DNA of 64,000 bases from Halioglobus sp. GTDB lineage: Bacteria > Pseudomonadota > Gammaproteobacteria > Pseudomonadales > Halieaceae. The DNA lies in the NCBI GenBank assembly GCA_020443425.1, contig JAGRIE010000004.1, positions 1-64,000 of the forward strand, given 5' to 3'. Both the position numbers and the translations under genes were made by a program. Below, piece after piece: positions 9,613 to 33,210 of this stretch. Numbering within the stretch: the first letter of the stretch is position 1; each line of letters begins with the position of its first letter. The notes beneath the pieces are model-generated. The model ran no database searches. It had not been told where the DNA came from and worked only from the letters and a program-made list of their open reading frames with translations.

Positions 9613-9790
9613 CATATGAATACAACTCAGCTTATTCACAGGGGTACACTCAAGCCGGTGCGCTGGCCGGGTGCGTGTAATCTGGCGTGGCATTGTAGGG
9701 GAAGGCCCGGGAAGTGTCCAGACTCCATGCCGCCATTAACGCCCGGCATCGCGTATCCGGGCCGCCCCGACGCCGCCAAAAAAGTGCCGC

Positions 9791-9806
9791 TAAAGCAATT
9801 GCTTTA
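9791..9806. promoter_or_regulatory. 16-bp perfect palindrome, candidate TetR operator
   Basis: TAAAGCAATTGCTTTA is a perfect palindrome about 52 bases before the SDR start codon. It overlaps the proposed -35 element of that promoter. The operon it precedes encodes a TetR-family repressor as its second gene, so autoregulation through this site is the simplest hypothesis. Confidence 0.65.
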
Positions 9807-9826
9807 ACGAAAAAAGCGCCTATTAT
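9799..9826 (+). promoter_or_regulatory. Putative sigma70 promoter of the SDR-tetR-ACAD operon
   Basis: A -35-like TTGCTT (9799-9804) and a -10-like TATTAT (9821-9826) are separated by 16 bases, upstream of the SDR gene at 9859. The -35 half lies inside the palindrome, as expected for a repressed promoter. This is pattern recognition only. Confidence 0.5.
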
Positions 9827-12475: not shown

Positions 12476-12507
12476 GCCACGAGCCACCCAATTCAGGAGT
12501 ACACGTA

Positions 12508-13707: not shown

Positions 13708-13716
13708 CGGTATGCA

Positions 13717-16844: not shown

Positions 16845-17276
16845 CTAGGCCAACCGCTCCAGCGCAGCTCGCAGGGGTTGCGGAATTGGAACCGAGCGGT
16901 TTTCCGCGCGCTCTACAAACACATGCACGAAATGGCCATGCGCGGCAGCATCCTCTTCCCCCTCCCTGAAGATGGCGATGCCGTACTGCACTGAGCTGTT
17001 TCCGAGGCGATCCACTCTGATGCCGGCCTCAATCACGTCGGGGTAGGCAATGGGCGCATGGTACTCACAGCCGGAATTCACCACATAGCCGACAATACTG
17101 CCGTCGCTGATATCCAGCCCGCCCTCTTCGATCAGGTAGCGGTTGGCGGCTGTATCAAAGTAGGAGTAGTAGGTGACATTGTTCACATGGCCGTAAATAT
17201 CGTTGTCAGACCAGCGCGTGGTGATGGGATAGAACACCTTGTAATCGGCCCGGGTGGGGCGTCGCGCCTTACTCAT
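16845..17276 (-). CDS. 4-hydroxybenzoyl-CoA-type (hotdog) thioesterase
   Basis: The 143-aa protein is a single hotdog domain with the 4HBT signature WSDNDIYGHVNNVTYYSYFD (residues about 21-40), which carries the catalytic Asp and GHVNN turn. It would release free acids from acyl-CoA. It is the last gene of the reverse-strand operon that starts with the MaoC hydratase, overlapping the iron alcohol dehydrogenase stop by 4 bases. A role in recycling CoA or relieving stalled intermediates is inferred. Confidence 0.9.
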   Translation of the reverse strand: MSKARRPTRADYKVFYPITTRWSDNDIYGHVNNVTYYSYFDTAANRYLIEEGGLDISDGSIVGYVVNSGCEYHAPIAYPDVIEAGIRVDRLGNSSVQYGIAIFREGEEDAAAHGHFVHVFVERAENRSVPIPQPLRAALERLA

Positions 17277-18439
17277 GCTGCTGCTCCATAGGCGGCCTGA
17301 TAGATGGCCAGCGCATCCTCGTAGGCGACATCGCGGGGATTGTTTACCAACAGGCGCTGTTGCAGCATGGCATCGCTGGCGAGCAGTTCGAGATCGGCCG
17401 CTTTCACGCCCGCCTTCTGCAGCGTTGCAGGCAGCGCCACATCGTCAATCAATTGCCGCAGGGCGGCGATCAATGCTGTCGTTTTCGCCTCGGCACTCCC
17501 CGCTACCGGACGGCCCGTCACGGCTTCCGCCAGCTCGGCATAGAGCTCGCTGGCCGCTGGCGCGTTGAACTCCAGGACAGAGGGCAGGACCAGCGAGTTA
17601 CTCAGGCCGTGCGGGATATGGTAGTGGCCGCCCAACGGGTACGCCAGCGCATGGACCGCGGCCACGGGTGCATTGGCAAACGCCTGTCCGGCGAGGCAGG
17701 CGCCAAGCAACATATTTTCGCGGGCCTGCAGATTGCTGCCATCGAGCACAGCGGTGCGAATATTGCGCGATAGCAACTGCAGGGCCTGAATTGCGAGGTT
17801 GTCAGACAGGGGGTTCTTCTTGTGCCGGGAGGTATAGGCCTCAATAGCGTGCACCATGGCATCGACACCTGTCATGGCAGTGACGGCAGGCGGCAGCCCC
17901 AGGGTCAACGCGGCATCCAGCACTGCAACATCCGGCAGCAATACCGGCGAGGAAACACCCGCCTTGGTGGTCTCACCGGTGGTAATGACGGCAACCGGGG
18001 TGACCTCCGACCCTGTACCCGCAGTCGTCGGCACCAGAACCAGCGGCAGGCGGCCACCGCTCACCTGCCCCACACCGTAAATCTCTGGCAGCGCCTGCGT
18101 GCCGCCCAGTAGAACAGCCACCACCTTGGCGACATCCATCGAACTGCCGCCGCCGACCGCGATAACACCGTCGACCGCGCCATCTCGCGCCGCCTGGGCC
18201 GCCGCGTGCACTGTGGCCTCAGGCGGATCCTCGCGAACCTCGTCAAACACCAGCGGTTCGAGGCCCGCCTGCTGCAGCGCCGCCAATACCGGCTGCACCA
18301 GCCCGATCGCCACCAGGCCAGGGTCTGTCACCAACAGCGGCCGCTGCACACCCAGGTGCCGGCACTGCACGGCGAGCTCCAGGGCGCTACCTGCGCCATT
18401 GATGATTCGCGCTACCGTATTGAATTCAAAACCCTGCAT
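17273..18439 (-). CDS. Iron-containing alcohol dehydrogenase
   Basis: The 388-aa protein is a group III (Fe-dependent) alcohol dehydrogenase. The NAD(P) site appears as GVIAVGGGSSMDVAKVVAVL at about residues 94-113, followed by TTAGTGSEVTPVAVIT. Metal ligands lie in GVDAMVHAIEAYTS and GGHYHIPHGLSNSL. It likely interconverts an alcohol and aldehyde derived from the substrate. It overlaps the thioesterase and lies 12 bases from the quinone oxidoreductase gene. Confidence 0.93.
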   Translation of the reverse strand: MQGFEFNTVARIINGAGSALELAVQCRHLGVQRPLLVTDPGLVAIGLVQPVLAALQQAGLEPLVFDEVREDPPEATVHAAAQAARDGAVDGVIAVGGGSSMDVAKVVAVLLGGTQALPEIYGVGQVSGGRLPLVLVPTTAGTGSEVTPVAVITTGETTKAGVSSPVLLPDVAVLDAALTLGLPPAVTAMTGVDAMVHAIEAYTSRHKKNPLSDNLAIQALQLLSRNIRTAVLDGSNLQARENMLLGACLAGQAFANAPVAAVHALAYPLGGHYHIPHGLSNSLVLPSVLEFNAPAASELYAELAEAVTGRPVAGSAEAKTTALIAALRQLIDDVALPATLQKAGVKAADLELLASDAMLQQRLLVNNPRDVAYEDALAIYQAAYGAAA

Positions 18440-18451
18440 GGCGGATTACCT

Positions 18452-19429
18452 CTACATCGTAAGTATGACCTTGCCGCGTGCGCGGCGCTCAATCATACAG
18501 TTGAAAGCCTCTTCGTACTGCTCGAGCGGAAAACTGTCTGTGACTACAGGGCTGATTTTACCACTGGCGAACAGCTCCCACAGCGCCTCGATATTCCTCA
18601 GGTTTTCCTCCGGCTCCTCGCCCACAAACCGGCCCCAGAACACTCCCACCAGGGAACAGCCCTTGAGCAGTGTGAGGTTGAGTGCGATCTTGGGGATGGG
18701 ACCACTGGCAAAGCCGATCACCAGATAGCGGCCATTCCACGCCATGCCACGGATCGCCGGCTCGGCGTAATCGCCACCGACCGGGTCATACACCACATCC
18801 ACACCCCGGCCACCCGTCAGGTTCTTGATCGCATCCTTGAGGTTTTCCCGGCTGTAGTTGATGACTTCGTCAGCGCCCAGCTTCTTGCACAGTTCCAGTT
18901 TCTCGTCGGTACTGGCAGCCGCTATCACCTTGGCTCCCATCTGCTTGCCCAGCTCTATGGCGCTGGTGCCGACACCGCCGGCGGCGCCGAGTACCAGCAG
19001 TGTTTCACCAGGCTGCAGGGCAGCGCGCTGCTTGAGCGCATAGTAGGAGGTGAAATAGGTGATACTGACTCCGGCCGCCTGCTCAAAGCTCAACCCGGCG
19101 GGCATCGGGAACGCACCCAGCTCATGGACGGCAATTTTCTGGCAGAACGCGCCTGAGCCGCCTGCGGATATCACCTTGTCACCGACGTTGAAACGGCTGA
19201 CACCGGCACCGACGGCGGTCACCACGCCCGCGCATTCACCACCCGGCACAAACGGCATTTCCGGCTGCATCTGGTATTTCCCCTGAATCATCAGGACATC
19301 GGGAAAATTGAGGCCCGCCGCCCTCACGTCGATCAACACATCGTGTTCACCCACTTCCGGCTCCGGCCAGTCCTGCACCAGCTCCAGTTTGTCCGGCAAA
19401 CCGTGTTCCCTGCACACCACTGCTTTCAT
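18452..19429 (-). CDS. NADPH:quinone oxidoreductase-like MDR protein
   Basis: The 325-aa protein belongs to the zinc-free quinone reductase branch of the medium-chain dehydrogenase family. The start at MKAVVCREHGLPDKLELV is typical, and the upstream in-frame extension is not. The NADPH-binding motif LVLGAAGGVGTSAIELGKQM lies near residues 143-162. Members reduce quinones or enones with NADPH. Its place between the thiolase and alcohol dehydrogenase genes suggests enoyl reduction, but this cannot be read from sequence. Confidence 0.9.
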   Translation of the reverse strand: MKAVVCREHGLPDKLELVQDWPEPEVGEHDVLIDVRAAGLNFPDVLMIQGKYQMQPEMPFVPGGECAGVVTAVGAGVSRFNVGDKVISAGGSGAFCQKIAVHELGAFPMPAGLSFEQAAGVSITYFTSYYALKQRAALQPGETLLVLGAAGGVGTSAIELGKQMGAKVIAAASTDEKLELCKKLGADEVINYSRENLKDAIKNLTGGRGVDVVYDPVGGDYAEPAIRGMAWNGRYLVIGFASGPIPKIALNLTLLKGCSLVGVFWGRFVGEEPEENLRNIEALWELFASGKISPVVTDSFPLEQYEEAFNCMIERRARGKVILTM

Positions 19430-19475
19430 TGTCTTTCCTCCGCTCGCTGGCCGATATGACCAGGTCTCAAACAAG

Positions 19476-19512: not shown

Positions 19513-20691
19513 TCAGGCCACTTCAAACAGGCCCGCTGCACCCATGCCACCGCCCACGCACATGGTGATCACCACATACTTGACGCCGCGGCGCTTGCCC
19601 TCGATCAGGGCGTGACCGATCATGCGGGAGCCGCTCATGCCGTAGGGGTGGCCGATGGAGATGGCACCGCCGTTGACATTGAGCTTGTCGTTGTCGATGC
19701 CCAGCTGGTCGCGACAGTACAGCACCTGCACAGCGAAGGCCTCATTCAGTTCCCACAGGCCGATATCATCCACTTTCAGGCCGTGCTGCTTGAGCAATTT
19801 GGGTACCGCGAACACCGGGCCGATGCCCATCTCGTCGGGCGCACATCCGGCCACCGCGATACCGCGGTAATAACCCAGTGGCTGCAGCCCTTCCTTCTCT
19901 GCGGTCTTGGCGTCCATGATCAGCTGCGCAGAGGAACCGTCGGACAGCTGCGAGGCATTGCCGGCGGTGATAGTGCCGCCCTCGACAACGGTCTTCAGGC
20001 CCTGCAGGCCCTCCAGCGTAGTGGCGCGCAGGCCTTCGTCCGCCGATACTGTGCCTTCAACCAGTGACGCCTCGCCGGTGGCCTTGTCCCATACCGTGCG
20101 CTGGCAGGTGACGGGCACCAGCTCGTCAGCGTATTTACCGGCCTCATAGGCGGCGGCTGTGCGCTGCTGCGACTGCAGGCCGTATTCATCCATCGCCTCG
20201 CGCGAAATATTGTAGCGCTTGGCGACGACTTCAGCCGTGTCCAGCATGGATACAAACATATTCGGCTCGATCGCCAGCAGTTCCTCATCGACCATACGAT
20301 GCAGGTTCATGTGCTCGTTCTGCACCAGGGTGATACATTCCAGGCCACCACCGATTACACAGTCCATGCCGTCGTACATGACCTGTTTGGCGGCTGTCGC
20401 CACCGCCATCAGCCCGGACGAGCACTGGCGATCCATGGTCATCCCGGAGGTGGTGATGGGCAAACCCGCGCGCAGTGCAATCTGGCGAGCGATGTTTGAG
20501 CCGGTGGCACCCTGTTCCAGAGCGCAACCCATGATGACGTCTTCAACTCGGGCCGGGTCAATGCCGGCCCGCTTGACGACTTCCGCCACCGATGCGGCAC
20601 CCAGGGTTGCACCCCCGAGGTTGTTGAAACCGCCGCGGAACGCTTTGGCGATGGGTGTACGCGCGGTGGATACGATTACTGCTTCTCTCAT
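19513..20691 (-). CDS. Acetyl-CoA C-acyltransferase (thiolase)
   Basis: The 392-aa protein is a degradative thiolase that cleaves 3-oxoacyl-CoA with CoA. It has the acyl-accepting Cys90 (MDRQCSSGL), the NEAF loop, His348 ([10 protein letters not shown]) and Cys378 (TMCVGGGMG). It resembles the FadA5/FadA-like group found in lipid and steroid side-chain degradation. It is third in the operon after the MaoC hydratase and the MFE-2-like SDR, which supply hydration and 3-hydroxyacyl oxidation, so this operon has the lower half of a beta-oxidation cycle. Confidence 0.95.
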
Positions 20692-20743: not shown

Positions 20744-21661
20744 CTATTTGTTCAGGCCCAGGCCTTCCATTGCTTTACCGGTCAATTTCACGGTCTGCTC
20801 AAAGCCGGCCTGCGGCTGCGTCTCACCTACAGGCGATGCGATGGCGTCCCAGTGCGCGGCGATACCTTCCGGCGTCTGCTCGGCTGGTGGCAGCCAGACA
20901 CCGTCCGTCTCGATAATTTTCGCCACCGAGTAGGCTCCGGCTCCCGCACAGATGATGGTTTTGGTCGGCGCGTTCTCGCTCACCATGTACAGTACAGCCG
21001 GCGTCACCGTCTCCGGGGTCAGCAGTGCAAACGCCTCCTCGGGGATGAGGCCCTCGGTCATACGCGTGCCGGCGGTCGGCGCCAGCGCATTGATGTGGAT
21101 ATTGTATTTCGCGCCTTCCTGCGCCAGCGTATTCATCATTCCGATCACGCCCATCTTGGCGCTGCCGTAGTTGGTCTGGCCGAAGTTGCCGTACAGGCCG
21201 GAGGACGAGGTGGTCACCACGATGCGACCGTAGGACTGTTCCCGCATGATCTCCCAGCAGGCCTTGGTGCAATTCACACTGCCCATCAGGTGCACGTCCA
21301 GCACGAGCTTGAAATCCTCCAGGCTGCCTTTGGCGAAACTCTTGTCACGCAGGATGCCGGCGTTGTTGACCAGGATGTCCACCCGGCCCCATTTGTCCAT
21401 CGCCTGCTTCACCATCGCTTCCACTTCATCGTACTTGGCAACGTTCGCGCCGTTGGCGATGGCCTCACCACCGAGCGCCTCGATTTCAGCGACGACTGAT
21501 TTGGCGGCCTCCGATGAGCCGCCGGAACCGTCGACACCGCCGCCAAGATCGTTGATCACAACCTTGGCACCGCGCTTGGCCAGCTCGATTGCATGGCTGC
21601 GCCCCAGACCCTGGCCAGCGCCGGTCACGATGGCCACTTTTCCGTCGTATCGAATAGACAT
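20744..21661 (-). CDS. SDR family 3-hydroxyacyl-CoA dehydrogenase, MFE-2/HSD17B4-like
   Basis: The 305-aa protein has the N-terminal SDR fold of peroxisomal multifunctional enzyme 2: [12 protein letters not shown] near residues 13-24, [11 protein letters not shown] near 99-109, and catalytic Ser152, Tyr165 and Lys169 ([10 protein letters not shown]). The C-terminal extension (about residues 240-305) is typical of bacterial homologues that act on CoA-linked substrates. It likely oxidises (3R)-hydroxyacyl-CoA to 3-oxoacyl-CoA. This matches the stereochemistry of the MaoC hydratase encoded just upstream and the thiolase downstream. Confidence 0.9.
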
Positions 21662-21703: not shown

Positions 21704-22168
21704 TCAGGCACAGATAACCATGGTCAACCACTCGGCGATCAGCGCCGGCGTCTCCTCGCCTTCAATCTCCACCGAGATCGATTGCTTCACCAGGAAACGG
21801 TTGTCGTCCTTGCGCGTGACATCGGCGATTTCTGCATTGGCACGCACCCGCTTGCCGGATTTTACCGGTGCCAGGAAACGCACCTTGTCGAACCCGTAAT
21901 TCAATCCCATCACGATATTTTCCGGAATGACACCGCTGCCCTCGACCAGTTTGGATAGCAGGGAGAGCGTCAGGAACCCGTGGGCGATCGTGCCGCCAAA
22001 CGGCGTGTTCCTGGCCGCCTCCGGGTCCACATGGATGAACTGGTGATCCTCGGTGCAATCGGCGAACGTGTTGATCCGGTCCTGGGTGACCTCAATCCAG
22101 GGGCCCGGCTCAAACTTGGTGCCAATGGCATCCAGCATCTCTTCCTTGGGTACGATTTTTACTGCCAT
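21704..22168 (-). CDS. MaoC-like (R)-specific enoyl-CoA hydratase
   Basis: The 154-aa hotdog protein carries the hydratase 2 motif, with Asp41 and His46 in CTEDHQFIHVDPEAA and the downstream GGTIAHGFLTLSLL segment. It adds water to trans-2-enoyl-CoA to give the R-3-hydroxy product. The ATG at 22168 follows an AAGGAG site; the frame is open upstream to 22480 but that stretch covers the promoter and is not protein-like. It heads a six-gene operon ending with the thioesterase, under a promoter shared in sequence with the 30.4-kb operon. Confidence 0.92.
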   Translation of the reverse strand: MAVKIVPKEEMLDAIGTKFEPGPWIEVTQDRINTFADCTEDHQFIHVDPEAARNTPFGGTIAHGFLTLSLLSKLVEGSGVIPENIVMGLNYGFDKVRFLAPVKSGKRVRANAEIADVTRKDDNRFLVKQSISVEIEGEETPALIAEWLTMVICA

Positions 22169-22495
22169 GCTGCGCTCCTTCTCAAATGTGCTGCAACGGA
22201 AACCATCTAGTGTAGTCGAGCAATGCTGTTTCACCCAGCCCATTTCCACCCGGTACAGGCCATTCCGGCTGCCGGGGAAAGCGCACGCAAAAGCGGGTGA
22301 AGCGTGAGATAAACTGCCCAAAAAAGGGTTTTGAACATACAGTATGTATTTACGTCTTTCAAGTATTTTATGCCGAACCCGGGGCGCCGGAAGGGGTGAC
22401 GCCGTAACCGGGGAGCCGCGCGGGGCGCGGCGTCCAGCCCGGGGTGCGAGCGCCCGGCATCGGCCGCAGCGGGGCGCCACCCACGGCGCGCTGAG
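22169..22495. other. Intergenic region between MaoC and the broken TonB receptor
   Basis: This 327-base gap contains the MaoC operon promoter/operator (22334-22362) and a leader of about 160 bases toward MaoC. A very GC-rich stretch (22371-22495) with several short inverted GC repeats lies next to the receptor end. No gene is seen. No hairpin with a T-run was found, so a rho-independent terminator for the receptor is not evident. Confidence 0.6.
22334..22362 (-). promoter_or_regulatory. MaoC-operon promoter with palindromic operator (copy 1)
   Basis: On the reverse strand a -35 element TTGAAA (22357-22362) and a -10 element TATGTT (22334-22339) are separated by exactly 17 bases. The -10 is overlapped by a perfect 13-bp palindrome ACATACAGTATGT (22335-22347). 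The same arrangement with nearly the same bases recurs at 30571-30599 before another catabolic operon, so both promoter and operator assignment are stronger than for a single copy. Confidence 0.8.
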
Positions 22496-24922
22496 CTAGA
22501 AATTGTACTGCAATTTCAGGCCGTATATACGCGGGTCTGTCAGTGTGGTGACGGCGTTCTGCGTCACCGTACTGGGGCGATCGCGCCGCACAATCTCGCG
22601 ATCATCGGTGATGTTCTTGATGAACGCCGTCACTTCCCATGCCAGGTCAGGGGCCGCGACGTTCAGGCGCGCATCCCATCGATCCCAACTGCCGACCCGG
22701 TCATAGGTGGGGTTGTTGAAGGGGGTCATCCACTGCTCACTCTGGTAGTAATAAGTGGCCGTTGCCGACCAGTCCAGCTGGAACAGCTCCCAGAAATACG
22801 TTGCGTTCAGCGACACCTTGTTCTCAGGCGTCAGCGCGAATTCATTGCCGCTGAGATCCTGCTCCTCGGTACAGAGCGGCGCCTAGGTGTAGCCCTGAGC
22901 ATAGGGCCCGAGAGTACAGGCATTGGCATCCTTGCTGTAGAAATCCTTGAACTCAGTGCCATTGTAGGAGTAGGTCGCGCTCAGCATCACCTCCGGCACC
23001 GGCAGTGCACGCAGCTCCATTTCCACGCCCATCGCCCTGGCGTCATCGGCATTCTCGAAGGTGTTCAGTGCAATGCCGTTCTCCACATCCTGCTTGATCA
23101 CCTGTAAATCGGCATAGTCGTAGTAGTAAGCCGACAGCGACAGGTTCAGCCGGTTCTCGAGCATTGCACCCTTATATCCCACCTCGTAGGAAATGATTTC
23201 TTCCGGCTTCACCACATCGACCAGCGGGCTGGCGGTGGGTTTCTGGAAATTAAAGCCGCCGGAGCGGTAGCCGGTGGCGACAAACGCGTACAGGAACTGT
23301 TGCGGCGAAAGGAAGTGATCCACACCGAGTCGCCAGGTCCACTTGTCCCAGTCATCGTCCTGTTTCCGGTAGATGGTGGGATCAGTGGGATCGCCGACAA
23401 ACTGGACAAACGTATTGTCCTCGCCCTTTTTCTCATCGTAGGAATAGCGCAGGCCGAAGGTGAATGTTGTGTCTTCCGTCCAGTCCCACCCCAGCTGCCC
23501 GAACGTCGCGTAGGAGCGCGTGTCGACATGCGCATCGCCGCGATACAGGTAGTTATCGTCACTCACCACGTCGTTCACAAACGGCCCGAAGAACGCGTAC
23601 ATCGCCATCAGTTCGTCGTTCCACTCACGGTAACTGACCACCTGCTCTTCGTCGCTGTGGTAGTAATAGAGTCCGCCCAACAGCGAGTAATCGCTGTCCC
23701 ACTCCGAGGCGTACTGCAGTTCGTGTGACTCGAATGTGGCCTCCTGGTTCACCACGTAGGTCATTTCAGCGGGGGTCACATGGTAACCCAGCGAACCGGG
23801 CAGATTGGCAACAGGAATGCCGCTCAGCAACAGCTTGCTCCAGTCCACGCCGGAATCCTCAGCTGCACTGCCGTCGGCATCGGTATCGGAATCGAACCAG
23901 TAGCGGGAGTACCCCCCGGTGTATTTCAGGGAGAAGGTGTCCGCACTGTATTCACTGTTGATGAAGGTCGCCCAGCGCCGGATTTTTACCGAGGGGTCAT
24001 GATCCTGTTTCAGTTTGTTCTCGTTCGCCAGTGCCGGGTTTTCTATCGCCAGGCCCTGGCGCATGTTCACGAAATTCTGTGCGGGAAACATACCGGGAAG
24101 GCTTATCGGCGCACCGGTTTCCACGTCGGCGACCTGCTGGTTCAGTTCACGCGAAAAGGGCTCAAGGATGTAGCCGTTGGCCGGCCGGTAATCCTGGTCC
24201 GTCCCCAGCACCTTGAGCACGGTGTTCCAGCGGTCGCTGGTCTGGTGTTCCAAGCTGAAGGTACCGTAAGGCGTCTGCTGCTCCTGGTAGTCCTTGCCAT
24301 TGTAAATATTCTTCTGGTAGCCCTCATGGCTGATGTATGACGCTCCGGCCAGGAACTTGAGCTTGTCCGTGACGGGACCGCTGGCGAGAGCCTGTATCAA
24401 CCTGCCGTCATAGTTGGTCAACTGGGCAGTGGCGGTACCGCCCCACTCCTCATTGGCCCGCTTGCTGACAAAATTGATCGCACCGCCCACCGAGTTGCGC
24501 CCGTACAGGATGCCCTGCGGACCGCGCAACACCTCGACACGCTCAATATCCATGAATTCGGACAGGCCGAAAACGTCGTTCTCGGAGTTGTACACACCGT
24601 CCCAATAAATCCCGATCCCGGGCTCTGAGCCTACCGCGAGGTTCGGCCGCCCCACCCCCCGTATACTGACCCTGAACGTCGTGATGGACAGTGAGGGCGT
24701 GTGCACCACCAGGTCCTGGGCACCGGTGATGCCCAGTTGGTTCAGGGTGGCGCTGTCAAAGGCGCTGATCGAGGCGGCGCTGTCCATCAGCGATGCCTCC
24801 CGCTTGTTCGCGGTGACAATGATTTCTTCCAGCCTGTTGGCCTGGGACAGGGCCTGCGGGGTCAGCGCGGCGAGAACAAAGGCAACGGCTGCGACACGGC
24901 CTGACTTGCTGGCGATACACAT
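22496..24922 (-). pseudogene. TonB-dependent receptor interrupted by one in-frame TAG
   Basis: The gene encodes an outer-membrane TonB-dependent receptor: signal peptide, TonB-box region (RLEEIIVTANKREAS), plug motif VEVLRGPQGILYGRNSVGGA and a long beta-barrel. After residue 679 (…GPYAQGYT) a single TAG at 22883-22885 stops the frame. The same frame continues without a shift (APLCTEEQDLSGNEFALTPE) through the last barrel strands to a typical terminal Phe (…YGLKLQYNF). A CAG-to-TAG change would explain it. The full length would be about 808 residues. Without the end the barrel should fail to assemble. It lies beside the catabolic operons, so its ligand is probably their substrate. Confidence 0.85.
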
Positions 24923-25056
24923 CGGACTGCACTCTTATTATTCATTATTTTTCAGAGGCTACCGCAGAAAGGAACAATATTACAGAGGTGCGCGGAATAT
25001 AACGACCAGCGCCGGGCGGGCGCCAGTCGCGCCGCCCGACCCCGATCACGCGCCCA

Positions 25057-26304
25057 TCAACCATCCCTGAAGGTCGCGCGCACACCGTCCTGGGCAGTGT
25101 ACTTCTTCAGCTCTGCCCGGCCGACCACCATGCGGTGCACCGCATCGGGGCCATCCGCCAGCCGCAGGGTGCGCTGCGCCATATACATATTCGCCAGCGG
25201 TGTGTCCTGCGAGACACCCAGTGCACCGAACATCTGGATGGCCTCATCGACAATGCGAATGGAGACATTCGGCACGGCGGTCTTGATCATCGAGATCCAA
25301 ACCCGCGCCTCTTTCGCATCGACATTGTCCATCATCCACGCTGTTTTCAATGTCAACAGCCGCGCCTGCTCAATATCCATACGGGCGTCGGCGATGATAT
25401 CGATATTGCCGCCCAACCGCGCCAGCGGCTTGCCAAAGGCTGTGCGCGACACCGCGCGGCTGCACATCAGCTCCAGTGCTTTCTCGGCTGCACCGATGGC
25501 GCGCATGCAGTGATGTATGCGGCCCGGCCCGAGGCGCCCCTGGGAGATTTCGAACCCGCGGCCAGCGCCCAACAGGATATTCTCCTTAGGCACCCGCACA
25601 TTGGTAAACCGCTGGTGCATATGGCCGTGCGGCGCATCATCCATGGAAAACACATTCATCGGCCGGATGTTTTCAAACCCGGGAGTATCCATGGGCACCA
25701 GTATCTGCGATTGCTGCAAATGGGTGGCTGCATCGGGATCGGTCTTCACCATCACGATCATGACCTTGCAGCGGGGGTCGCCGGCACCGGAAACATAGTG
25801 CTTCTCGCCATTGATCACCCATTCGTCGCCATCCAGCACCGCGGACGTGGAGATATTGGTGGCATCGGACGATGCCACACCGGGTTCGGTCATCGCGAAG
25901 GCCGAACGGATCTCCCCGTTGAGCAGGGGTTCCAGCCACTGCTTTTTCTGCGCCTCAGTGCCGTACTTGTGCAGCACTTCCATGTTGCCGGTGTCCGGCG
26001 CCGAGCAGTTGAACACTTCGGCGGCCATATGCGACTTGCCCATCTCTTCGGCGAGATACGCATACTCCACGGTGGTCAGGCCGGAACCCGACTCCCCGGT
26101 GAGAAAGAAATTCCACAGCCCGCGCTCTTTCGCTTTCGCCTTGAGCCCCTCGCGAATGTCATTCTGGCGGTCGGTGAAGCTCCAGCGGTCACCCACGCCG
26201 ATATCCTCAAAGTACTCGTGCTCCACCGGGTGAATTTCAGTTTCTATAAACTGTTTCACTTCCTTCAACAGCGGTGCCACATTGGCGCTGATACCTAAAT
26301 CCAT
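25057..26304 (-). CDS. Acyl-CoA dehydrogenase, ACAD10/11-like
   Basis: The 415-aa FAD enzyme belongs to the branch related to ACAD10/ACAD11. It has FAMTEPGVASSDATNISTSA and the C-terminal MFGALGVSQDTPLANMYMAQ followed by LRLADGPDAVHRMVVGR, which are characteristic. The chosen ATG at 26304 has a GGGAG site at good spacing; a GTG six bases earlier is too close to that site. It is the last gene of the four-gene operon beginning at 30446. Substrates of this branch include branched, hydroxylated or long-chain acyl-CoAs. Confidence 0.92.
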   Translation of the reverse strand: MDLGISANVAPLLKEVKQFIETEIHPVEHEYFEDIGVGDRWSFTDRQNDIREGLKAKAKERGLWNFFLTGESGSGLTTVEYAYLAEEMGKSHMAAEVFNCSAPDTGNMEVLHKYGTEAQKKQWLEPLLNGEIRSAFAMTEPGVASSDATNISTSAVLDGDEWVINGEKHYVSGAGDPRCKVMIVMVKTDPDAATHLQQSQILVPMDTPGFENIRPMNVFSMDDAPHGHMHQRFTNVRVPKENILLGAGRGFEISQGRLGPGRIHHCMRAIGAAEKALELMCSRAVSRTAFGKPLARLGGNIDIIADARMDIEQARLLTLKTAWMMDNVDAKEARVWISMIKTAVPNVSIRIVDEAIQMFGALGVSQDTPLANMYMAQRTLRLADGPDAVHRMVVGRAELKKYTAQDGVRATFRDG

Positions 26305-26364
26305 AATCACTCTCCCTTACCGTTAATGTTCAATACCCGCGCTACCAAGCGGGGCTGTATGGCA

Positions 26365-28068
26365 CTACCGTGCGGCCAGTTCCGCGGCGTAGTCAGCCTT
26401 GAGCTGGCGCTTGAAAATCTTGCCCGAGGCAATGCGTGGCAACTGTTCGTCGTGGAACCAGATATGCGCCGGAATCTTGAATGAGGCGAGGTGGTCGCCG
26501 AGATAGGTGCGCAACGCCTCAGCGGTCACCTGCGCCCCCTCGCGCAACACCACAGCGGCGCCGACAATCTCGCCCAGCCTCTCGTCCGGCAGACCGAATA
26601 CGGCGACCTCATGCACACCGGGGTGCGCGTAAATGGCCGCCTCTACTTCAATGCAGCTGATGTTCTCACCGCCGCGAATAATAATGTCCTTGATACGGTC
26701 GACAATATAGAGAAAACCGTCTTCATCCAGATAGGCCACATCACCGGTGTGAAACCAGCCATCGACAAAGGCCTCTGCGGTTGCCTCCGGCTTGTTCCAG
26801 TACCCGAGAATATTGGCCGGGGACTTGATACACAGTTCACCCCGCTCACCGGCGGGCAGGGTATGGCCATCCGAATCGACAATACGGAATTCTGTGACCG
26901 CCGGCACCACCCTGCCAGAACTGTCGGGCTTGGCGATATAGAACGCGCCCGCATTCACCGCGCCCAGGGCATTGGTTTCAGTCAGTCCATAGCCGATACC
27001 CGGCGCTGACTTCTTGAACGTGCCGCTGATTTTTTTCACCTGCTCGGGCGGACGCGCCGCACCGCCGGCCATGATCTCCGTCAGCGAGGAGATATCCCGG
27101 TCGGTGGTCTCCGCCGCTGCCTGCAGTTCGGCGGACATGGTGGGCACGCCGTTGAACCAGGTGATGCGCTCCTTCTCGATCAACCGCAGTGCCTCCTGCG
27201 CATCCCACTTGTGCATGATCACCATCTTGCGGCCCACCACCAGCGACAACAGAAACGCAGAGTGACTGGCCGTGCAGTGGAACAGCGGAATCGTCACCAG
27301 CGCCGAGGGCGGCAGGCCCTCTTCACGAACAGCCTGACTCGCTGTCATTTTGGTGGCAACGCCCAGGCACATCCAGCTGTAGAGCGCGGACAAAACACCC
27401 CGGTGGGAGGACAGCGCTCCCTTGGGATGCCCGGTGGAACCGGAGGTGTACATAATCGTCGCATGGTCTTCCAGCGTCACCTCCACCTGCGGCATGGCGG
27501 CGCCGGCATAGGCCCGCAGCAACTCCGCAAACGGCGTGTGATCAACAGCCAGGCCGCTGCAGTCGTCGATGGTAATGAGTCGCAAACCATGCTTTTTGGC
27601 AATGGGGGCGAGTCGCTCCACCCGGGCGCGATCTGCGACCACCACGGTGGCACCGCTATCGGCCATGCCGTAATCGAGCTCCTCAGTCGTCCACCAGGCA
27701 TTCATCGGCACCGCCACCGCACCGATGGAGGTGATCGCAATCATCGCCATCATCCACTGCGGGTTGTTGCGGCTGAGAATGGCCACGCGGTCGCCTTTGC
27801 CAACGCCGAAGCGCTCAACCAGCGCCGCCCCCAGTTCGCAGCTGTGCTGGTAACCCTCGCCGAAGGTATAGCGCTCCTCCAGATACACCGCGAAGTCCTT
27901 GTCGGCGTGCTGTCGCATCACCTGGTAGTAAGCCCCCAGATTGGCCGGCAAGCCGACAAAGTTGCGGTACGCTATACCGCCCAGCTGCACGGTATTGACC
28001 TCAAAAGGCTGTCCGGGCGCCGTCAGACCGGCGACCACCTCATCGAATTTCGCAATATCAGGGTTCAT
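26365..28068 (-). CDS. AMP-forming acyl-CoA ligase (fatty-acid CoA ligase family)
   Basis: The 567-aa protein activates a carboxylic acid with ATP and CoA. All core motifs of the ANL family are present: IMYTSGSTGHPKGALSSHRG, GYGLTETNALG, WFHTGDVAYLDEDGFLYIVD followed by RIKDIIIRGGENIS, and the C-terminal catalytic Lys in PRIASGKIFKRQLK. It resembles long-chain and steroid/terpenoid acid CoA ligases more than acetyl-CoA synthetase. It stands between acyl-CoA dehydrogenase genes, so it likely supplies their thioester substrate after uptake. Confidence 0.93.
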   Translation of the reverse strand: MNPDIAKFDEVVAGLTAPGQPFEVNTVQLGGIAYRNFVGLPANLGAYYQVMRQHADKDFAVYLEERYTFGEGYQHSCELGAALVERFGVGKGDRVAILSRNNPQWMMAMIAITSIGAVAVPMNAWWTTEELDYGMADSGATVVVADRARVERLAPIAKKHGLRLITIDDCSGLAVDHTPFAELLRAYAGAAMPQVEVTLEDHATIMYTSGSTGHPKGALSSHRGVLSALYSWMCLGVATKMTASQAVREEGLPPSALVTIPLFHCTASHSAFLLSLVVGRKMVIMHKWDAQEALRLIEKERITWFNGVPTMSAELQAAAETTDRDISSLTEIMAGGAARPPEQVKKISGTFKKSAPGIGYGLTETNALGAVNAGAFYIAKPDSSGRVVPAVTEFRIVDSDGHTLPAGERGELCIKSPANILGYWNKPEATAEAFVDGWFHTGDVAYLDEDGFLYIVDRIKDIIIRGGENISCIEVEAAIYAHPGVHEVAVFGLPDERLGEIVGAAVVLREGAQVTAEALRTYLGDHLASFKIPAHIWFHDEQLPRIASGKIFKRQLKADYAAELAAR

Positions 28069-28098
28069 TATTATTGAGCGTCCCTTATCGGTAACTGG

Positions 28099-29238
28099 CT
28101 AGAAATGATTGAGCTGGGCAAAGCGGTCCAGGTGGTAGTTATAATCACCGAACAAGTGCTGCACAACCCGGGCTCGCTTGATGAAAAACCCGATCTCGTG
28201 TTCGTCCGTCATGCCGATACCACCGTGCATCTGGATGGCTTCATTGGTGACACGCTGGGCCACCTCACACAGCTTCGCTTTCGCTGCACTGGCCGGCAGG
28301 GACAGGTCCTCTTCGCCGGCATCAATCGCATGCAGCGCCTGCAATACGATGGAACGCGACAGCTCCAGCTCGGCGAACAACTCCGCGGCGCGGTGCTGCA
28401 GCCCCTGGAATGACCCGATCACCCGCCCGAACTGCTTGCGCTCCTTCAGGTAGGCGACCGTGCGCTCAAACGCCTCGGTGGACAGGCCGAGCAACTCGGC
28501 AGCGAGGCCGATATTGGCAATATCCAGCGCCCGTTTCAGTCCGCCCCAGGCTGCCCCCGGCTCGCCCAGCAGACTGTCGGCAGCTACCCGCACATTGTCC
28601 AGCGACAGTGCGCCGACACTGCGAGAATCCACCAGCTTGCGGCGCTCCACGGTAACACCGGCTGTCGCCGCATCCACCAGGAAGGCGCTCAGGCCCTGTT
28701 CGTCACCGGGCTGTGCGGCCGTGCGCGCGATCACAATGAACGCGTCTGCCGACACGGCGTCCAGCACCAGCACCTTGGCACCGTTGAGAATATATTCATT
28801 GCCCTGCGCCTGCGCGCCCAGCGCAGTGTGCAGCGGATCGTGATGGGCACCTTCCTGCAGCGCCAAACTCACCAGTTTCTCACCGCTGGCGATCGCGGCC
28901 AGCCACTGTTCTTTCTGCTGCTCACTGCCCAGTTCGCCGATAACCGTGGCGGCCACCAGCACGGTGGACTGCAAGGGGCTGGCGCTGAGATTGCGCCCAG
29001 CCTGCTCCAGCACCAGACCGAGACCGGTGTAACCGTACCCCAGCCCGCCAAAGGCCTCGGCGATAGCGATGCCGGCCCAACCCATCTCTGCCATCTCCCG
29101 CCACACGTCATCACTGAAGCCGCGTTCACTGTCGCTGTCGCGCAACGCCCGCAACTGGGCGACGGATGCCTTTTCGGCCAGAAAGCCCGCGGCCGATTCC
29201 TTGAGCATCACCTGTTCTTCATTCAATACCAATGCCAT
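28099..29238 (-). CDS. Acyl-CoA dehydrogenase family protein (beta-like partner of a pair)
   Basis: The 379-aa protein starts MALVLNEEQVMLKESAAGFL, with the family domains in order and the C-terminal MHGGIGMTDEHEIGFFIKRA. Part of the usual FAD-contact segment is altered (LVSLALQEGAHHDPLHTAL where active homologues have TEP..GSD). It is 26 bases downstream of a second, different acyl-CoA dehydrogenase. Such adjacent pairs form alpha2beta2 heterotetramers in steroid side-chain degradation (for example FadE28-FadE29), and this member looks like the less canonical subunit. The pairing is inference. Confidence 0.9.
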   Translation of the reverse strand: MALVLNEEQVMLKESAAGFLAEKASVAQLRALRDSDSERGFSDDVWREMAEMGWAGIAIAEAFGGLGYGYTGLGLVLEQAGRNLSASPLQSTVLVAATVIGELGSEQQKEQWLAAIASGEKLVSLALQEGAHHDPLHTALGAQAQGNEYILNGAKVLVLDAVSADAFIVIARTAAQPGDEQGLSAFLVDAATAGVTVERRKLVDSRSVGALSLDNVRVAADSLLGEPGAAWGGLKRALDIANIGLAAELLGLSTEAFERTVAYLKERKQFGRVIGSFQGLQHRAAELFAELELSRSIVLQALHAIDAGEEDLSLPASAAKAKLCEVAQRVTNEAIQMHGGIGMTDEHEIGFFIKRARVVQHLFGDYNYHLDRFAQLNHF

Positions 29239-29264
29239 GGTCTGTACCCTTCGTCTGGTTGGCG

Positions 29265-30446
29265 CTATGCGTCTGGAAGGCCAAGCACACGCTTGGCGAT
29301 AATGTTGAGTTGCACCTCGGTGGTCCCCCCCTCAATGGAGTTGCCCTTGGAGCGCAACCAGTCGCGACTGAGCATACCGTCGTGATACACCTCGCCCTCC
29401 CAGCCCAGCGCCTGCTCACCGCACACCGCGAGATTGAGTTCGTTACGCCGCTTATTCAACTCCGTGCCGTAGTATTTGAAGATCGAGGAGGCAGCGCCCA
29501 GCCCCTGCCCCGCCTTCGCCTCATCCCCGACCCGCGCCATGGTGGCGCCGAATACCAGGGTATCGAGCTGGTACTGCGCGATGGCCTGGCGCAATACAGG
29601 GCTCGCCAGGCGTCCGCTGGCATCGGTACCGATGGTATCCACCGCCACCTGTCCCACGGACTTTTTCGGCGCCGCACCGAAACCGGAGATCATCTCACGC
29701 TCGTGCGTCAGCAGGTATTTGGCAATGGTCCAGCCATTCCCCGCCTCCCCGACCAGGTTCCGCTTATCGGCGATCGCATCGTCGAAGAAGGTCTCGCAGA
29801 ACGGTGAACTGCCGCTGATCAGCTTGATAGGGCGCACGGTGACACCGGGCTGGTCCATATCAAACAACACAAAGCTGATGCCCTCGTGTTTGCTGCCGCT
29901 GTTGTCGGTGCGCACCAGGCAGAATATCCAGTCAGCTTTGTCGGCGTAGGATGTCCAGATCTTCTGGCCGTTGATCACATAGTGATCGCCCTTGTCCTCG
30001 GCCTTGGTGGCGAGGCTGGCGAGGTCCGATCCGGCATTGGGTTCGGAGTAGCCCTGACACCAGCGAATCTCCCCGCGCGCGATCTTCGGCAGGTGCTCCA
30101 GTTTTTGCTCCTCGCTGCCGAAGTGCAGCAGCGCCGGTCCCAGCATGGAGATGCCAAAGCTGTCCAGCGCCCGCCGCGCCCCTATCCTGGCCATCTCCTC
30201 ACTGAGGATCTTCACCTCGGCTGCATCCAGGCCGCCACCGCCGTAGGCCTTCGGCCAGTGCGGGACCGTCCAGCCGCGCTCGGCCATGCGGTCACACCAC
30301 AGCTTTTGGTCGGGATGCGCTATCTCCGGGTTCCGACCGCCGTTGTACAGGTCTTCAAAGCCCTTGACCGGCACGCGCATGGACTCGGGGCAATTACTCT
30401 CCAACCAGGTCCGGGTGTCCTGGCGGAATTGTTCAAGATCGCTCAC
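29265..30446 (-). CDS. Acyl-CoA dehydrogenase family protein (alpha-like partner of a pair)
   Basis: The 393-aa protein has the FAD-contact segment GYSEPNAGSDLASLATKAED (about residues 132-151) and KIWTSYADKADWIF. Its C-terminus LRSKGNSIEGGTTEVQLNII is characteristic of the FadE26/FadE29-like branch acting on bulky acyl-CoAs. It starts with GTG after a GAGGT site and is the first gene of a four-gene operon (two acyl-CoA dehydrogenases, ligase, ACAD10/11-like enzyme). The promoter with a 15-bp palindrome at 30571 lies about 125 bases upstream. Confidence 0.92.
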   Translation of the reverse strand: MSDLEQFRQDTRTWLESNCPESMRVPVKGFEDLYNGGRNPEIAHPDQKLWCDRMAERGWTVPHWPKAYGGGGLDAAEVKILSEEMARIGARRALDSFGISMLGPALLHFGSEEQKLEHLPKIARGEIRWCQGYSEPNAGSDLASLATKAEDKGDHYVINGQKIWTSYADKADWIFCLVRTDNSGSKHEGISFVLFDMDQPGVTVRPIKLISGSSPFCETFFDDAIADKRNLVGEAGNGWTIAKYLLTHEREMISGFGAAPKKSVGQVAVDTIGTDASGRLASPVLRQAIAQYQLDTLVFGATMARVGDEAKAGQGLGAASSIFKYYGTELNKRRNELNLAVCGEQALGWEGEVYHDGMLSRDWLRSKGNSIEGGTTEVQLNIIAKRVLGLPDA

Positions 30447-30570
30447 GGGGTTACCTCACAGTTCAATTGGCTCGCTGCCAGACGGTCTCACGACCGCCGG
30501 GAGAAGACCGCTTCAGTATAGACGCTGCAGGTGGATACGCCTTCGGCCCGCCACCTGGAAAACGGATTTG

Positions 30571-30599
30571 AACATACAGTATGTTTTGAGTGCGTTCAA
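30571..30599 (-). promoter_or_regulatory. Promoter with palindromic operator (copy 2), before the 30.4-kb operon
   Basis: On the reverse strand TTGAAC (30594-30599), a 17-base spacer and TATGTT (30571-30576) form a good sigma70 promoter. A perfect 15-bp palindrome AACATACAGTATGTT (30571-30585) covers the -10. Compared with copy 1 at 22334-22362, the palindrome, the -35 and the exact distance between them are conserved while the bases of the intervening spacer differ. That is the signature of selected regulatory elements. Confidence 0.82.
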
Positions 30600-30643
30600 G
30601 TATCTCCCTCGTGTCGCACAGTACCCGCCGGTGCGGCTGTCAG

Positions 30644-30675
30644 AAAAAAAAAGGGGGGCTGCCACTGGCGCCCCC
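30644..30675 (-). terminator. Rho-independent terminator of the second TonB receptor gene
   Basis: On the reverse strand a GGGGGC...GCCCCC stem with an inner GCC/GGC helix is followed by nine T residues (30644-30652). It lies about 45 bases after the receptor stop codon at 30720 and before the promoter of the next operon, a textbook position. Confidence 0.9.
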
Positions 30676-30719: not shown

Positions 30720-33017
30720 TCAGAACTCGAAAATCACCTCGCCGCCCCACATGGCGGGTGCCAGATAGGTGGTGGCCGTCGAGCCGATGCGGTAATTCAC
30801 ACTGTCCTCGTCGGTGATGTTTTTGCCCCACACGGCAAACTGCCAGCTGAGACCGCCCATCTCGACATCGGCCAGGCTGATGCGCGCATTGAGCAGGCCG
30901 TAATCGCCCACCTCCACTTTCCCGAACTCGGTATTGGCCAGCGCAAACTGGTCGTCCTGCCACGAGTAATCGAGGTGGAAGCGCAACTGCCCGATGCTGA
31001 TCGGCAGCTCGTAGTCAGCGGTGACCGAGTAGGCATTTTTCGGGGCCCATACCAGTTCCGTGGTATCGGTGTGATCGGTGCCATCCGGAAAGTCGACATT
31101 ACTGAAATCGTAGTCCAGGTAGGCGTAACTCAGCCCTACGAGAAACTGGTCTGTGACCGCCGCCTGCAGATCGATCTCCAGACCATAGACATCGGCATCA
31201 CCCGAGTTGAAGGATTCCACCAGCTGCGGACTGAGCACCGGGTCGGGCAGGTAGTCGAGGATGATATCGTTGATGCGCATGTAGTAGGCCGCGCCGTTGA
31301 AGCGGACTCGCTGGTCCAGCAGCTCCGATTTCCAGCCGATTTCACCGGAGGTCAGGTCCTCACTGTCAAACGGCTTGTTGAAGTCCACCCCGTTGCGACT
31401 GGAGCCCCCGGAGCGGAAGCCGGTGGACACCTTGGCGTAAGTCGAGAACGCTTCGGTCCAGTTGTAGTCGGCGATCGCAGTGTAATCGAAGCGGTCCTTG
31501 CTGGAGTCGGTGGCCCCGGGCGCAAACGAGTTCGCGTACCAGCCGTCATTGGTGCGACTCGCCTCGCGTTGATCGTCGGTGTAACGCAGCCCCAGTGTCA
31601 GGTCCAGTTTGTCATCGAGGATATCGGGCGTGTAGGTGGACTGGCCATACGCCGCCCAGGACTCGACATCGGTACTGACTTTGTACTCACCCAGGTAATT
31701 GGGCAGCGTGCCATTCACAAAATCAGTGCAGATCGGCCCCGGCCGGGTGCCGTCCGAGCAGGGCTTCATGGTAAAGAAGTCGAAGGCGTAGATGCCCATT
31801 TGATCGACTGCGGCGCGATCCAGGTACTGCCGCTCCATCTGGTCACCGTTTTCATTGAAATAGTACAGGCCACCGACGTACTGCAGGCGCTCGGCACTGC
31901 CCAGCAGCTGCAATTCCTGCGACCACTGGTCCTGCTGTGTCTTGGTGTAGACCTCGAGACTGCCGGCATCACCAAAGGCCTGGGCAAAGTTCTGCGAGAT
32001 TTCATCGTCGAAATCCCGGTAACCGGTGATCGACTTCAACGTCAGGTTGTCGCTGAGTTCATAGCTGATGGTGAGGTTATGCCCGTTGACCTCGGTGGTT
32101 GAGTCCGGCAGGTAGTAGGCGGTCTGCGCGCCACCGGTCGGGGAGCGGGTATGTTTCAACCGATCCGTGAAGCTGTTGGTAATCGGCAGGCCGGCCACCG
32201 TGGTGCCTCCGGTGGGCCCGCTGTACTGGAAGTACGGCGGCGATGAGGTCACATCCGAATAATCGTAGCTGTAATCCACCAGCAGTTTGTCAATACCGTC
32301 AAACCGCAGCGCCGCCCGGTAGCCCTCAGTCTCCTTTTTGTAGTAGTCGGTGTAATCGTAGCCGGGCACCTCATTCGCGCCCTCGTTCTGCACCCAGCCC
32401 TCACGATCGGAGAAGGCCGCTGTCAACTTGGCTTTAAAACCCGACACATCGGGCAGGTTCAGGTGGCTCACCGAGCGCCAGCTATCGTAGTTGCCGGCGC
32501 TGAGGGTCTGCTTGAAGCCCAGCTCACCCGTGGGTTTGGCATTGATGAAATTGATGGCACCGGCCATGGTGTTGCGCCCGTACAGGGTCCCCTGCGGGCC
32601 GCGAAGGATTTCCACTCGCTCCAGTTCAGACAGGTCCGACAACAGGCCGGTTGAGCGCGCCGCGTATACCCCGTCGTAGTACAGCCCGACAGTGGGATCC
32701 TTGGTGAGCACGATGGAATCGGCGTTGCCGATGCCGCGAATAAACAGCGCGAGATTGTTGGTCGCATTCGGGTAGGCCGGCATTTGCAGGTACGGGGATG
32801 CCGCGCCGATATCCTTGGCATCGATCAGTCCCATCGCCTCAATGCTCGCGCTGTCGTAGGCACTGATGGCGATCGGCGTATCCTGCAGCGACTCGGCACG
32901 TTTTTGCGCTGTGACAATAACCTCTTCCAACTGCTGTGCCATCGCTGCGTTCAGGGTCAGTCCCGAGGTCAGCATTACAGTAAGCGACAGTGTTGTTCGC
33001 GCGCATTTATGAAACAT
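30720..33017 (-). CDS. TonB-dependent receptor
   Basis: The 765-aa outer-membrane receptor starts at the ATG at 33017, which follows GGAGGGAA and gives a normal signal peptide (MFHKCARTTLSLTVMLTS... cleaved near AMA-QQ). An earlier in-frame start at 33044 lacks such a site. The TonB-box region LEEVIVTAQKRAES, the plug motif RVEILRGPQGTLYGRNTMAG and a terminal Phe (GGEVIFEF) are present, and the frame is intact. It has its own terminator and lies upstream of the acyl-CoA operon. It belongs to the large receptor group of marine Proteobacteria whose ligands are often hydrophobic compounds rather than siderophores. The ligand is unknown. Confidence 0.93.
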   Translation of the reverse strand: MFHKCARTTLSLTVMLTSGLTLNAAMAQQLEEVIVTAQKRAESLQDTPIAISAYDSASIEAMGLIDAKDIGAASPYLQMPAYPNATNNLALFIRGIGNADSIVLTKDPTVGLYYDGVYAARSTGLLSDLSELERVEILRGPQGTLYGRNTMAGAINFINAKPTGELGFKQTLSAGNYDSWRSVSHLNLPDVSGFKAKLTAAFSDREGWVQNEGANEVPGYDYTDYYKKETEGYRAALRFDGIDKLLVDYSYDYSDVTSSPPYFQYSGPTGGTTVAGLPITNSFTDRLKHTRSPTGGAQTAYYLPDSTTEVNGHNLTISYELSDNLTLKSITGYRDFDDEISQNFAQAFGDAGSLEVYTKTQQDQWSQELQLLGSAERLQYVGGLYYFNENGDQMERQYLDRAAVDQMGIYAFDFFTMKPCSDGTRPGPICTDFVNGTLPNYLGEYKVSTDVESWAAYGQSTYTPDILDDKLDLTLGLRYTDDQREASRTNDGWYANSFAPGATDSSKDRFDYTAIADYNWTEAFSTYAKVSTGFRSGGSSRNGVDFNKPFDSEDLTSGEIGWKSELLDQRVRFNGAAYYMRINDIILDYLPDPVLSPQLVESFNSGDADVYGLEIDLQAAVTDQFLVGLSYAYLDYDFSNVDFPDGTDHTDTTELVWAPKNAYSVTADYELPISIGQLRFHLDYSWQDDQFALANTEFGKVEVGDYGLLNARISLADVEMGGLSWQFAVWGKNITDEDSVNYRIGSTATTYLAPAMWGGEVIFEF

Positions 33018-33210
33018 GGCTTCCCTCCACTTTTTATAAATCAATAGCTGATTTGCCCTCCTGGCGATAAGGCAACCAACGGACTATAGGACGATTCTGC
33101 TCGCAGTAAGAGTGAACTATTTACTGAAGTTGGTATTTGCCGGTGATCCGCGCCTGCCACGCACAGTCGCCCCAACACCGCGACCCGAAGCCAGAGCCGC
33201 CACGGCCCGC

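Follow-up and report, generated by a model that had tools for sequence, protein, structure and literature searches.

The stretch of DNA analysed here (the window) comprises the first 64,000 nucleotides of contig JAGRIE010000004.1 from a Halioglobus sp. assembly (GCA_020443425.1). Two operons for acyl-CoA catabolism lie on its minus strand, operon A beginning with a MaoC-type hydratase and operon B with an acyl-CoA dehydrogenase (ACAD), each headed by a copy of the same promoter-operator element (sites A and B). Comparison with related genomes joins the two operons in a compact regulon, for which a protein with two TetR units in a single chain (double TetR) is a strong candidate regulator. The features concerned are listed below (hexamers and palindromes read from the sequence; scan scores from a position weight matrix, PWM).

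22325-22369, minus strand: site A, the entire conserved promoter-operator element, ahead of the MaoC operon (PWM scan, 68.8 bits)
22357-22362, minus strand: TTGAAA, -35-like hexamer of site A
22334-22339, minus strand: TATGTT, -10-like hexamer of site A
22335-22347, minus strand: palindrome ACATACTGTATGT of site A
30562-30606, minus strand: site B, the entire conserved promoter-operator element, ahead of the ACAD1 operon (PWM scan, 69.3 bits)
30594-30599, minus strand: TTGAAC, -35-like hexamer of site B
30571-30576, minus strand: TATGTT, -10-like hexamer of site B
30572-30584, minus strand: palindrome ACATACTGTATGT of site B
21704-22168, minus strand: MaoC-type hydratase, 154 amino acids (aa) (PF01575; start taken from relatives, many of which have 154 aa; start in the open reading frame (ORF) list 22480)
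20744-21661, minus strand: short-chain dehydrogenase, SDR (PF00106)
19513-20691, minus strand: thiolase, acetyl-CoA C-acyltransferase (PF00108/PF02803; NF005494 above cut-off)
18452-19474, minus strand: zinc-type (PIG3-like) oxidoreductase (PF00107; TIGR02824, 280 of 297 bits)
17273-18439, minus strand: iron-type alcohol dehydrogenase, Fe-ADH (PF00465)
16845-17276, minus strand: 4HBT thioesterase (PF13279)
29265-30446, minus strand: ACAD1, paired acyl-CoA dehydrogenase of large-subunit type (Pfam; top PDB matches 4x28 chain A and Tcur3483; pimC_large below cut-off)
28099-29238, minus strand: ACAD2, partner acyl-CoA dehydrogenase (Pfam; pimD_small below cut-off; best PDB match 5ol2, with Tcur3481 fifth and 4x28 chain D further down)
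26365-28068, minus strand: AMP-forming acyl-CoA ligase (PF00501; steroid-24-oyl-CoA synthetase CasG 432 bits, cut-off 750)
25057-26310, minus strand: ACAD3, ACAD11-like acyl-CoA dehydrogenase (PDB 4hr3, 8v3u, 2wbi)
22883-24922, minus strand: TonB-dependent receptor between the two operons (PF00593/PF07715)

An earlier reading of the letters alone (the sequence-only reading) had described the operons as MaoC-SDR-thiolase-reductase-ADH-thioesterase and as two ACADs, a ligase and a third ACAD. Pfam searches bear out this gene content, except that operon B does not end after the third dehydrogenase and instead runs on into the TonB receptor gene. Among the regions fetched, a TonB receptor at this position was found in the own genus only. 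Upstream of site B, a GC-rich hairpin followed by a T run is seen on the minus strand at 30645-30675; it is likely the terminator of another TonB receptor gene (30720-33044) and would shield site B from read-through.

Both palindromes are exact and located where the sequence-only reading had placed them. The minus strand of both sites reads ATACTTGAA...ACATACTGTATGTTCAAA, hence TTGAA(A/C)-N17-TATGTT: the distance to TATGTT (22339-22334 and 30576-30571) is 17 bases both for TTGAAA (22362-22357) and for TTGAAC (30599-30594), as had been described. This is a sigma-70-type layout, with -35-like and -10-like hexamers and a 17-bp spacer, and in both sites the promoter-proximal palindrome arm shares bases with the -10. 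The likeness between the promoters had been confined to these parts; it does include them, but extends to ATACTTGAA, AAA/AAAT, TTCAAA flanks and a G at +7. Parts of the 45-bp elements, apart from the palindrome, are a ATACTTGAANG part and a TTCAAAT part. The PWM gave no hit above 5 bits in the window other than sites A and B. With up to two mismatches the palindrome has four strand matches in the window (two sites on both strands) against 0.48 expected, a number reached by 1 of 100 shuffles. Throughout the 4,334,610-base genome assembly, ACATACNGTATGT occurs in exactly two places, both in the window, and its reversed control in none. A 16-base core searched with up to three mismatches gave 14 strand matches in the same genome; four are sites A and B, and the other ten compare with seven for the reversed control.

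Alignment of 124 unique sites with an exact CTTG defines a conserved, asymmetric element of about 40 bp, ATACTTGAaNG-N5-AAAACATACTGTATGTTCAAATcc, spanning both the -35 and the -10 (three of 127 sites lack CTTG and were excluded from the PWM). The 124 sites were selected by a motif of the same shape, and letters within the search pattern are thus partly conserved by selection. The ATA before the pattern, the G at +7 (116/124), the spacer AAA and the AAAT behind are outside it, so their conservation is not due to selection. CATAC is invariant, whereas the other arm varies at position 26 (T in 110 sites, A in 12, G in 2). The palindrome, which the sequence-only reading took as the signal, is exact in the window. 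What is conserved, however, is an asymmetric unit; two further families of the order (f32 and f41) and the side-promoters of Halieaceae have a disrupted palindrome.

The 13-mer of the palindrome was found in 18/18 genomes of the own genus (control in 2) and in 83/140 genomes of the family (reversed control in 12). The site with up to two mismatches was present in 96/140 family genomes (reversed control 5) and, with up to one mismatch, in 22 of 390 genomes of the order (control 0); f32 and f41 again carry it before ACAD1 or ACAD3. Copy number is low, two in the own genome and few per relative. A motif scattered genome-wide without association to acyl-CoA genes, which would have spoken against the sequence-only reading, is not what was seen. 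A scan of named genomes for CTTG-N12-ACATACTGTATGTTC returned 97 stretches, 70 of which are titled as Halieaceae or its genera and most others only as Gammaproteobacteria or Proteobacteria. Six carry titles of other groups (L102, L148, L151, L159, L167, L180). Three of these (L102, L151, L159) are contigs of metagenome-assembled genomes labelled Alphaproteobacteria and Xanthomonadales, with an exact site before a TonB receptor. L148 (JAGRFZ010000135.1, labelled Rhodocyclaceae bacterium HKST-UBA163) matches six genes of the window at 100% (rounded) and a cut ACAD3 at 94%, and is probably mis-binned or mis-named.

The arrangement of the target genes in relatives (loci fetched because they bear the site, not a random sample) links the two operons. 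In 12 regions from genera g2, g5, g6, g7, g9, g17 and g20 (L062-L064, L066-L070, L072, L079, L084, L085), the genes from ACAD1 through MaoC and beyond run uninterrupted behind a single site; within these regions the ligase was not detected in L066 and L084, nor Fe-ADH in L066. Five regions of genus g22 have a shorter ACAD3-MaoC operon, again behind one site. About a dozen further regions have ACAD3 and MaoC apart, with a site for MaoC itself, the separator being the TonB receptor in the own genus and a Rieske oxygenase or other genes elsewhere. The first gene after 143 unique sites is ACAD1 (66), MaoC (29), ACAD3 (17), NMO (14), a paralogous ACAD (5), a TonB receptor (4) or an LLM oxidoreductase (3), so that catabolic or uptake genes follow 138/143. 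The remaining five were scored as having none (L073, L180, L340, and L100 and L243, in which there is too little downstream sequence). The proposal of one regulon serving one pathway is therefore well supported. Position 15 is A in all 66 ACAD1-type sites and T in 26 of 29 MaoC-type sites, for which reason the two classes look old and separately inherited. Site A is probably a second copy made when an ancestral single operon split, since one-site operons occur in other genera and in the outlying family f41. In g22 (Luminiphilus-type), the same site precedes an NMO/FabK-like flavoprotein and HMG-CoA reductase (L087 7742-9900; L405, L406, L407, L409); HMG-CoA reductase lies behind NMO in the loci read, and both are unexpected members of the regulon in this genus.

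As had been noted, no regulator gene adjoins either promoter in the window. For the factor, which the sequence-only reading left unnamed, the double TetR is now a strong candidate. Its ORFs were exposed by a comparison of single-domain TetRs, in which 28 TetR_N places of the own genome set against the TetRs of three relatives gave no clear candidate of that kind. PF00440 (TetR_N) matches two stretches of the L315 and L239 proteins, which thus hold two TetR_N domains in one open chain. Relatives of about 430 aa occur in 106/140 family genomes (G080, G002 and G062 counted as fragments only; G014, a weak single-unit hit, left out) and, in the strong hit group (>240 bits), in 21/390 genomes of the order. 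The two helix-turn-helix motifs (HTHs) are non-identical, LTKTSLYYYV and VSKGAFYYHI in the Halieaceae forms, and both are strongly conserved over three families. TesB follows the gene in 18 of 20 Halieaceae loci, a conserved neighbourhood. The family search gave no double-TetR match in the own genome. However, contig C181 (9101 bases) of this genome ends within the gene, the last 45 residues aligning with the C-terminus of a relative and being followed by TesB. The match in one relative, G013:C3:361748-363028, has one internal TGA. In one f32 genome (G208), the ORF divergent from the site and ACAD3 has two PF00440 domains and is cut by the contig end. It was the only TetR among 30 ORFs near sites or site-like hits searched with Pfam, the others being enzymes, transporters, GGDEF, OmpA, JmjC and YebC proteins and two without a match.

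Site and double TetR occur together. Of the 390 genomes of the order, 20 have both, two the site only (G170, and G000, where a contig end truncates the gene), one the double TetR only (G492) and 367 neither. Among 78 family genomes at least 90% complete the corresponding numbers are 60, 3, 5 and 10, or 60, 2, 5 and 11 without G028; the site hits of G006 and G028 are chance-like, and one version of the table includes them while the other leaves them out. Fisher's test gives p = 3e-30 for the order and p = 6e-7 for the family, values that overstate the case because the genomes are related and phylogeny inflates the counts. Genus g10 lacks the double TetR in 8/8 genomes and the site in seven, its single hit being the chance-like one of G028. 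In g117 of f41 the gene lies about 4-7 kb from the site in 5/8 genomes, and in the two g117 regions read (L413, L414) it heads relatives of the Fe-ADH and 4HBT genes of operon A. TesB is the divergent neighbour of the site in four f41 (g117) loci according to Pfam.

A site-like element was also found on the promoter of the double-TetR gene itself. The sites had been found without reference to the regulator and the PWM was trained without any double-TetR promoter; a window of PWM rank 1-3 lies just before the gene in 25/26 Halieaceae loci (11,358-39,802 windows per locus). The element lies about 50-82 bases before the gene and is typically AAAAAATACTTAAAGTTGGAATT. None of 150 column-permuted PWMs reached 25 loci (maximum 19, mean 3.3; the two f41 loci excluded) and the mirrored PWM found none. 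A window of rank 1-3 also precedes a paralogous ACAD gene in 11/16 loci (at most 3 loci with any of 150 permuted PWMs, 2 with the mirrored PWM), a test not fully independent because two strict sites (L328, L391) are in the PWM training. Control upstream regions gave 1/27 for TesB, 0/22 for AceK, 0/17 for an ACAD2 paralogue, 0/18 for an SDR paralogue, 0/2 for Fe-ADH and 2/16 for LLM. For the enoyl-CoA hydratase that flanks the regulator on its other side the number was 5/22, and at least three of these (L321, L329, L330) are the regulator's own element read from the opposite direction. Coevolution of recognition helix and site was considered, given that f41 proteins have TKTC[V/L] with GTAAG sites as against TKTSL, and is not claimed because g22 pairs some GTAAG sites with TKTSL.

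Read from these comparisons, the double TetR is very probably the regulator of both operons, acting through the shared operator-promoter. One such protein, two complete TetR units in a chain of about 430 aa, would read both promoters; its gene has another place in the genome, beside that of a TesB thioesterase. Its two non-identical HTHs would sit asymmetrically on the element of about 40 bp; an asymmetric site fits, since the two recognition helices differ and both are conserved over three families. Because the element covers the -35 and the -10, the bound protein would, by the usual TetR logic, keep RNA polymerase off. On binding an inducer, most probably one of the acyl-CoAs or acids of the pathway, the protein would leave the DNA and open the genes for uptake, activation and beta-oxidation together. 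Computed results are the element with its low copy number and its targets, the double TetR's co-occurrence with it and proximity to it, the element on the regulator's own promoter and the truncated own copy; direct binding, repression rather than activation, the assignment of HTHs to half-sites and the inducer are what we infer from them.

Several observations weigh against the double TetR as this regulator. In the own genome it is seen only by its C-terminal end, most of the protein being unseen. When all 140 family genomes are counted, including incomplete ones, the table is weaker (84 with both, 12 site only, 22 double TetR only, 22 neither). Five of 65 double-TetR genomes at least 90% complete lack a site at three mismatches (G137, G138, G082, G087, G097), and no convincing site was found in G492. 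Conversely, G041 (92% complete) and G170 (97%) have sites and no double TetR was detected in them. In f41, the regulator is at least 70 kb from the site or on another contig in G334, G443 and G353, a ZnADH-like gene and not TesB is divergent from the site in L241, L245 and L246, and the own-promoter element is absent from both loci tested (ranks 23 and 174). Activation, too, is within the repertoire of TetR proteins.

With this in mind, it may be asked whether another regulator reads the element while the double TetR is a passenger of the same lineages. Related genomes have many genes in common, the main catabolic operon lies away from the double-TetR gene in all 20 Halieaceae loci read, and the five genomes with a double TetR and no site would agree with such a view. 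However, the gene adjoins the site in one f32 genome and clusters with operon-A relatives in f41, TesB is a common neighbour, and the site-like element is on the gene's own promoter in 25 of 26 loci. Moreover, the ORFs near sites include no TetR other than that of G208, and YebC/TACO1, JmjC and GGDEF proteins appear at one locus each, other regulator families not having been profiled genome-wide. A passenger is thus an unlikely explanation. The element might instead be a strong constitutive sigma-70 promoter conserved for its strength, with no operator role. TTGA-N17-TAtgTT does fit a sigma-70 promoter, and the variants at position 26 (A, G) keep the TA...T of the -10. On the other hand, ACATAC upstream of the -10, ATA before the -35, the G at +7 and the spacer AAA exceed what a promoter needs, there are only one to few copies per genome, and in the variants found before double-TetR and paralogous ACAD genes AAAA.ATAC...(G)T(T)..AA is retained but the CTTG box mostly lost, which makes a purely constitutive promoter very improbable. 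Sigma-32, LysR and MerR-spacing classes were also weighed against the aligned sites and set aside.

The TetR gene of the window itself (10680-11363), near operon A, matches TetR_N, stands in an acyl-CoA setting together with two further ACADs and a major facilitator superfamily (MFS) transporter, and could in principle control both sites. Its promoter region, however, has a different palindrome, CGCTAAAGCAA/TTGCTTTAACG, as the sequence-only reading had already noted. The 16-base core is not found there at up to three mismatches, the PWM lists only sites A and B in the window, and in site-bearing g22 and g11 relatives (L074, L086) the SDRx and MFS genes adjoin without a TetR between them. Control of both operons by this protein is hardly credible. 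It scores 52.7 of 300 bits against the NCBIfam PsrA model, below the cut-off. The gene is part of a plus-strand SDR-TetR-ACAD-ACAD-MFS unit (9859-14916) behind that palindrome at 9788-9809, and this unit is probably another acyl-CoA operon, with regulation of its own, that faces operon A.

The closest known system to the double TetR appears to be Mce3R of Mycobacterium tuberculosis. In a 2024 paper, Mce3R is described as a double-TFR (TetR family regulator) repressor whose two units fold into one asymmetric reader of a 25-bp non-palindromic site; it controls lipid and cholesterol genes, is autoregulated and uses two 25-bp sites 53 bp apart (PMC11667970). The same paper calls double-TetR regulators infrequent and presents Mce3R as the first with a structure (PMC11667970). 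The candidate likewise has one chain, two TetR units and two non-identical HTHs and, to judge from the computed asymmetry of its putative operator, probably shares an asymmetric operator. The autoregulation of Mce3R has a possible counterpart in the site-like element on the candidate's own promoter (Halieaceae, not the two f41 loci). Unlike Mce3R, the candidate would use one element of about 40 bp that overlaps the promoter, its gene is usually unlinked to the main target, and it belongs to another phylum. In a phmmer search Mce3R (9b7y) matched only over the second HTH region (residues 231-315, E 2.4e-10) and not over the full length, and orthology is not supported at the sequence level. A literature search, with subscription journals largely outside it, found no paper with the letters of the site and, among the matches listed, none on the site or on a Halieaceae double TetR. 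Tentatively, this may be a proteobacterial double-TetR repressor independent of Mce3R, in which the asymmetric element of about 40 bp would be operator and whole core promoter at once, each HTH resting on its own part, one chain or a dimer with four HTHs covering the -35 and -10, and the palindrome incidental. A further, weaker group of proteins in the order has 25-28% identity to the first over most of the length (G133:C10:177885, G048:C1:192556, G135:C28:18881, G328, G347, G379, G244) and is probably also composed of double-TetR proteins. PsrA and FadR share the TetR fold and acyl-CoA target genes with the double TetR, but are single TetR units; the L315 protein falls far below their NCBIfam cut-offs (FadR 60 of 200 bits, PsrA 25 of 300).

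With regard to the substrate, ACAD1 and ACAD2 resemble the heterotetrameric ACADs of steroid side-chain degradation, 4x28 (which we take to be ChsE4-ChsE5) and Tcur3481-Tcur3483, presumably steroid enzymes both. ACAD1 has its best matches there (4x28 chain A and Tcur3483). The similarity is moderate, and for ACAD2 the matches to Tcur3481 and to chain D of 4x28 are surpassed by those to several other dehydrogenases. The second-best NCBIfam model of the ligase is the steroid-24-oyl-CoA synthetase, below cut-off, and none of the steroid equivalog models reaches its cut-off (CasG 432 of 750 bits, steroid thiolase 288 of 515 bits). A Halieaceae isolate labelled BC51 is among six that grew with cholesterol (PMC5790920). 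Both sites (L128, L188) are present in the genome entitled Halioglobus japonicus isolate BC5_1, which, to judge by its label, is possibly the same isolate. The substrate may be a steroid or some other branched acyl chain, though this is less likely than not; the reduced g22 operon, which lacks ACAD1, ACAD2 and the ligase, points to a more general core substrate.

Taken together, these data place an orphan pair of promoters in a regulon that has a candidate factor and extends through a widespread marine family and into two others. The compact regulon appears real and its candidate factor strongly supported by the comparison of genomes. The way in which fused TetR units recognise DNA would become visible in a second, distant double-TetR group whose asymmetric site is sharply defined. 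The double TetR would also be a candidate sensor for acyl-CoA catabolism in a family that includes an isolate grown with cholesterol (PMC5790920).

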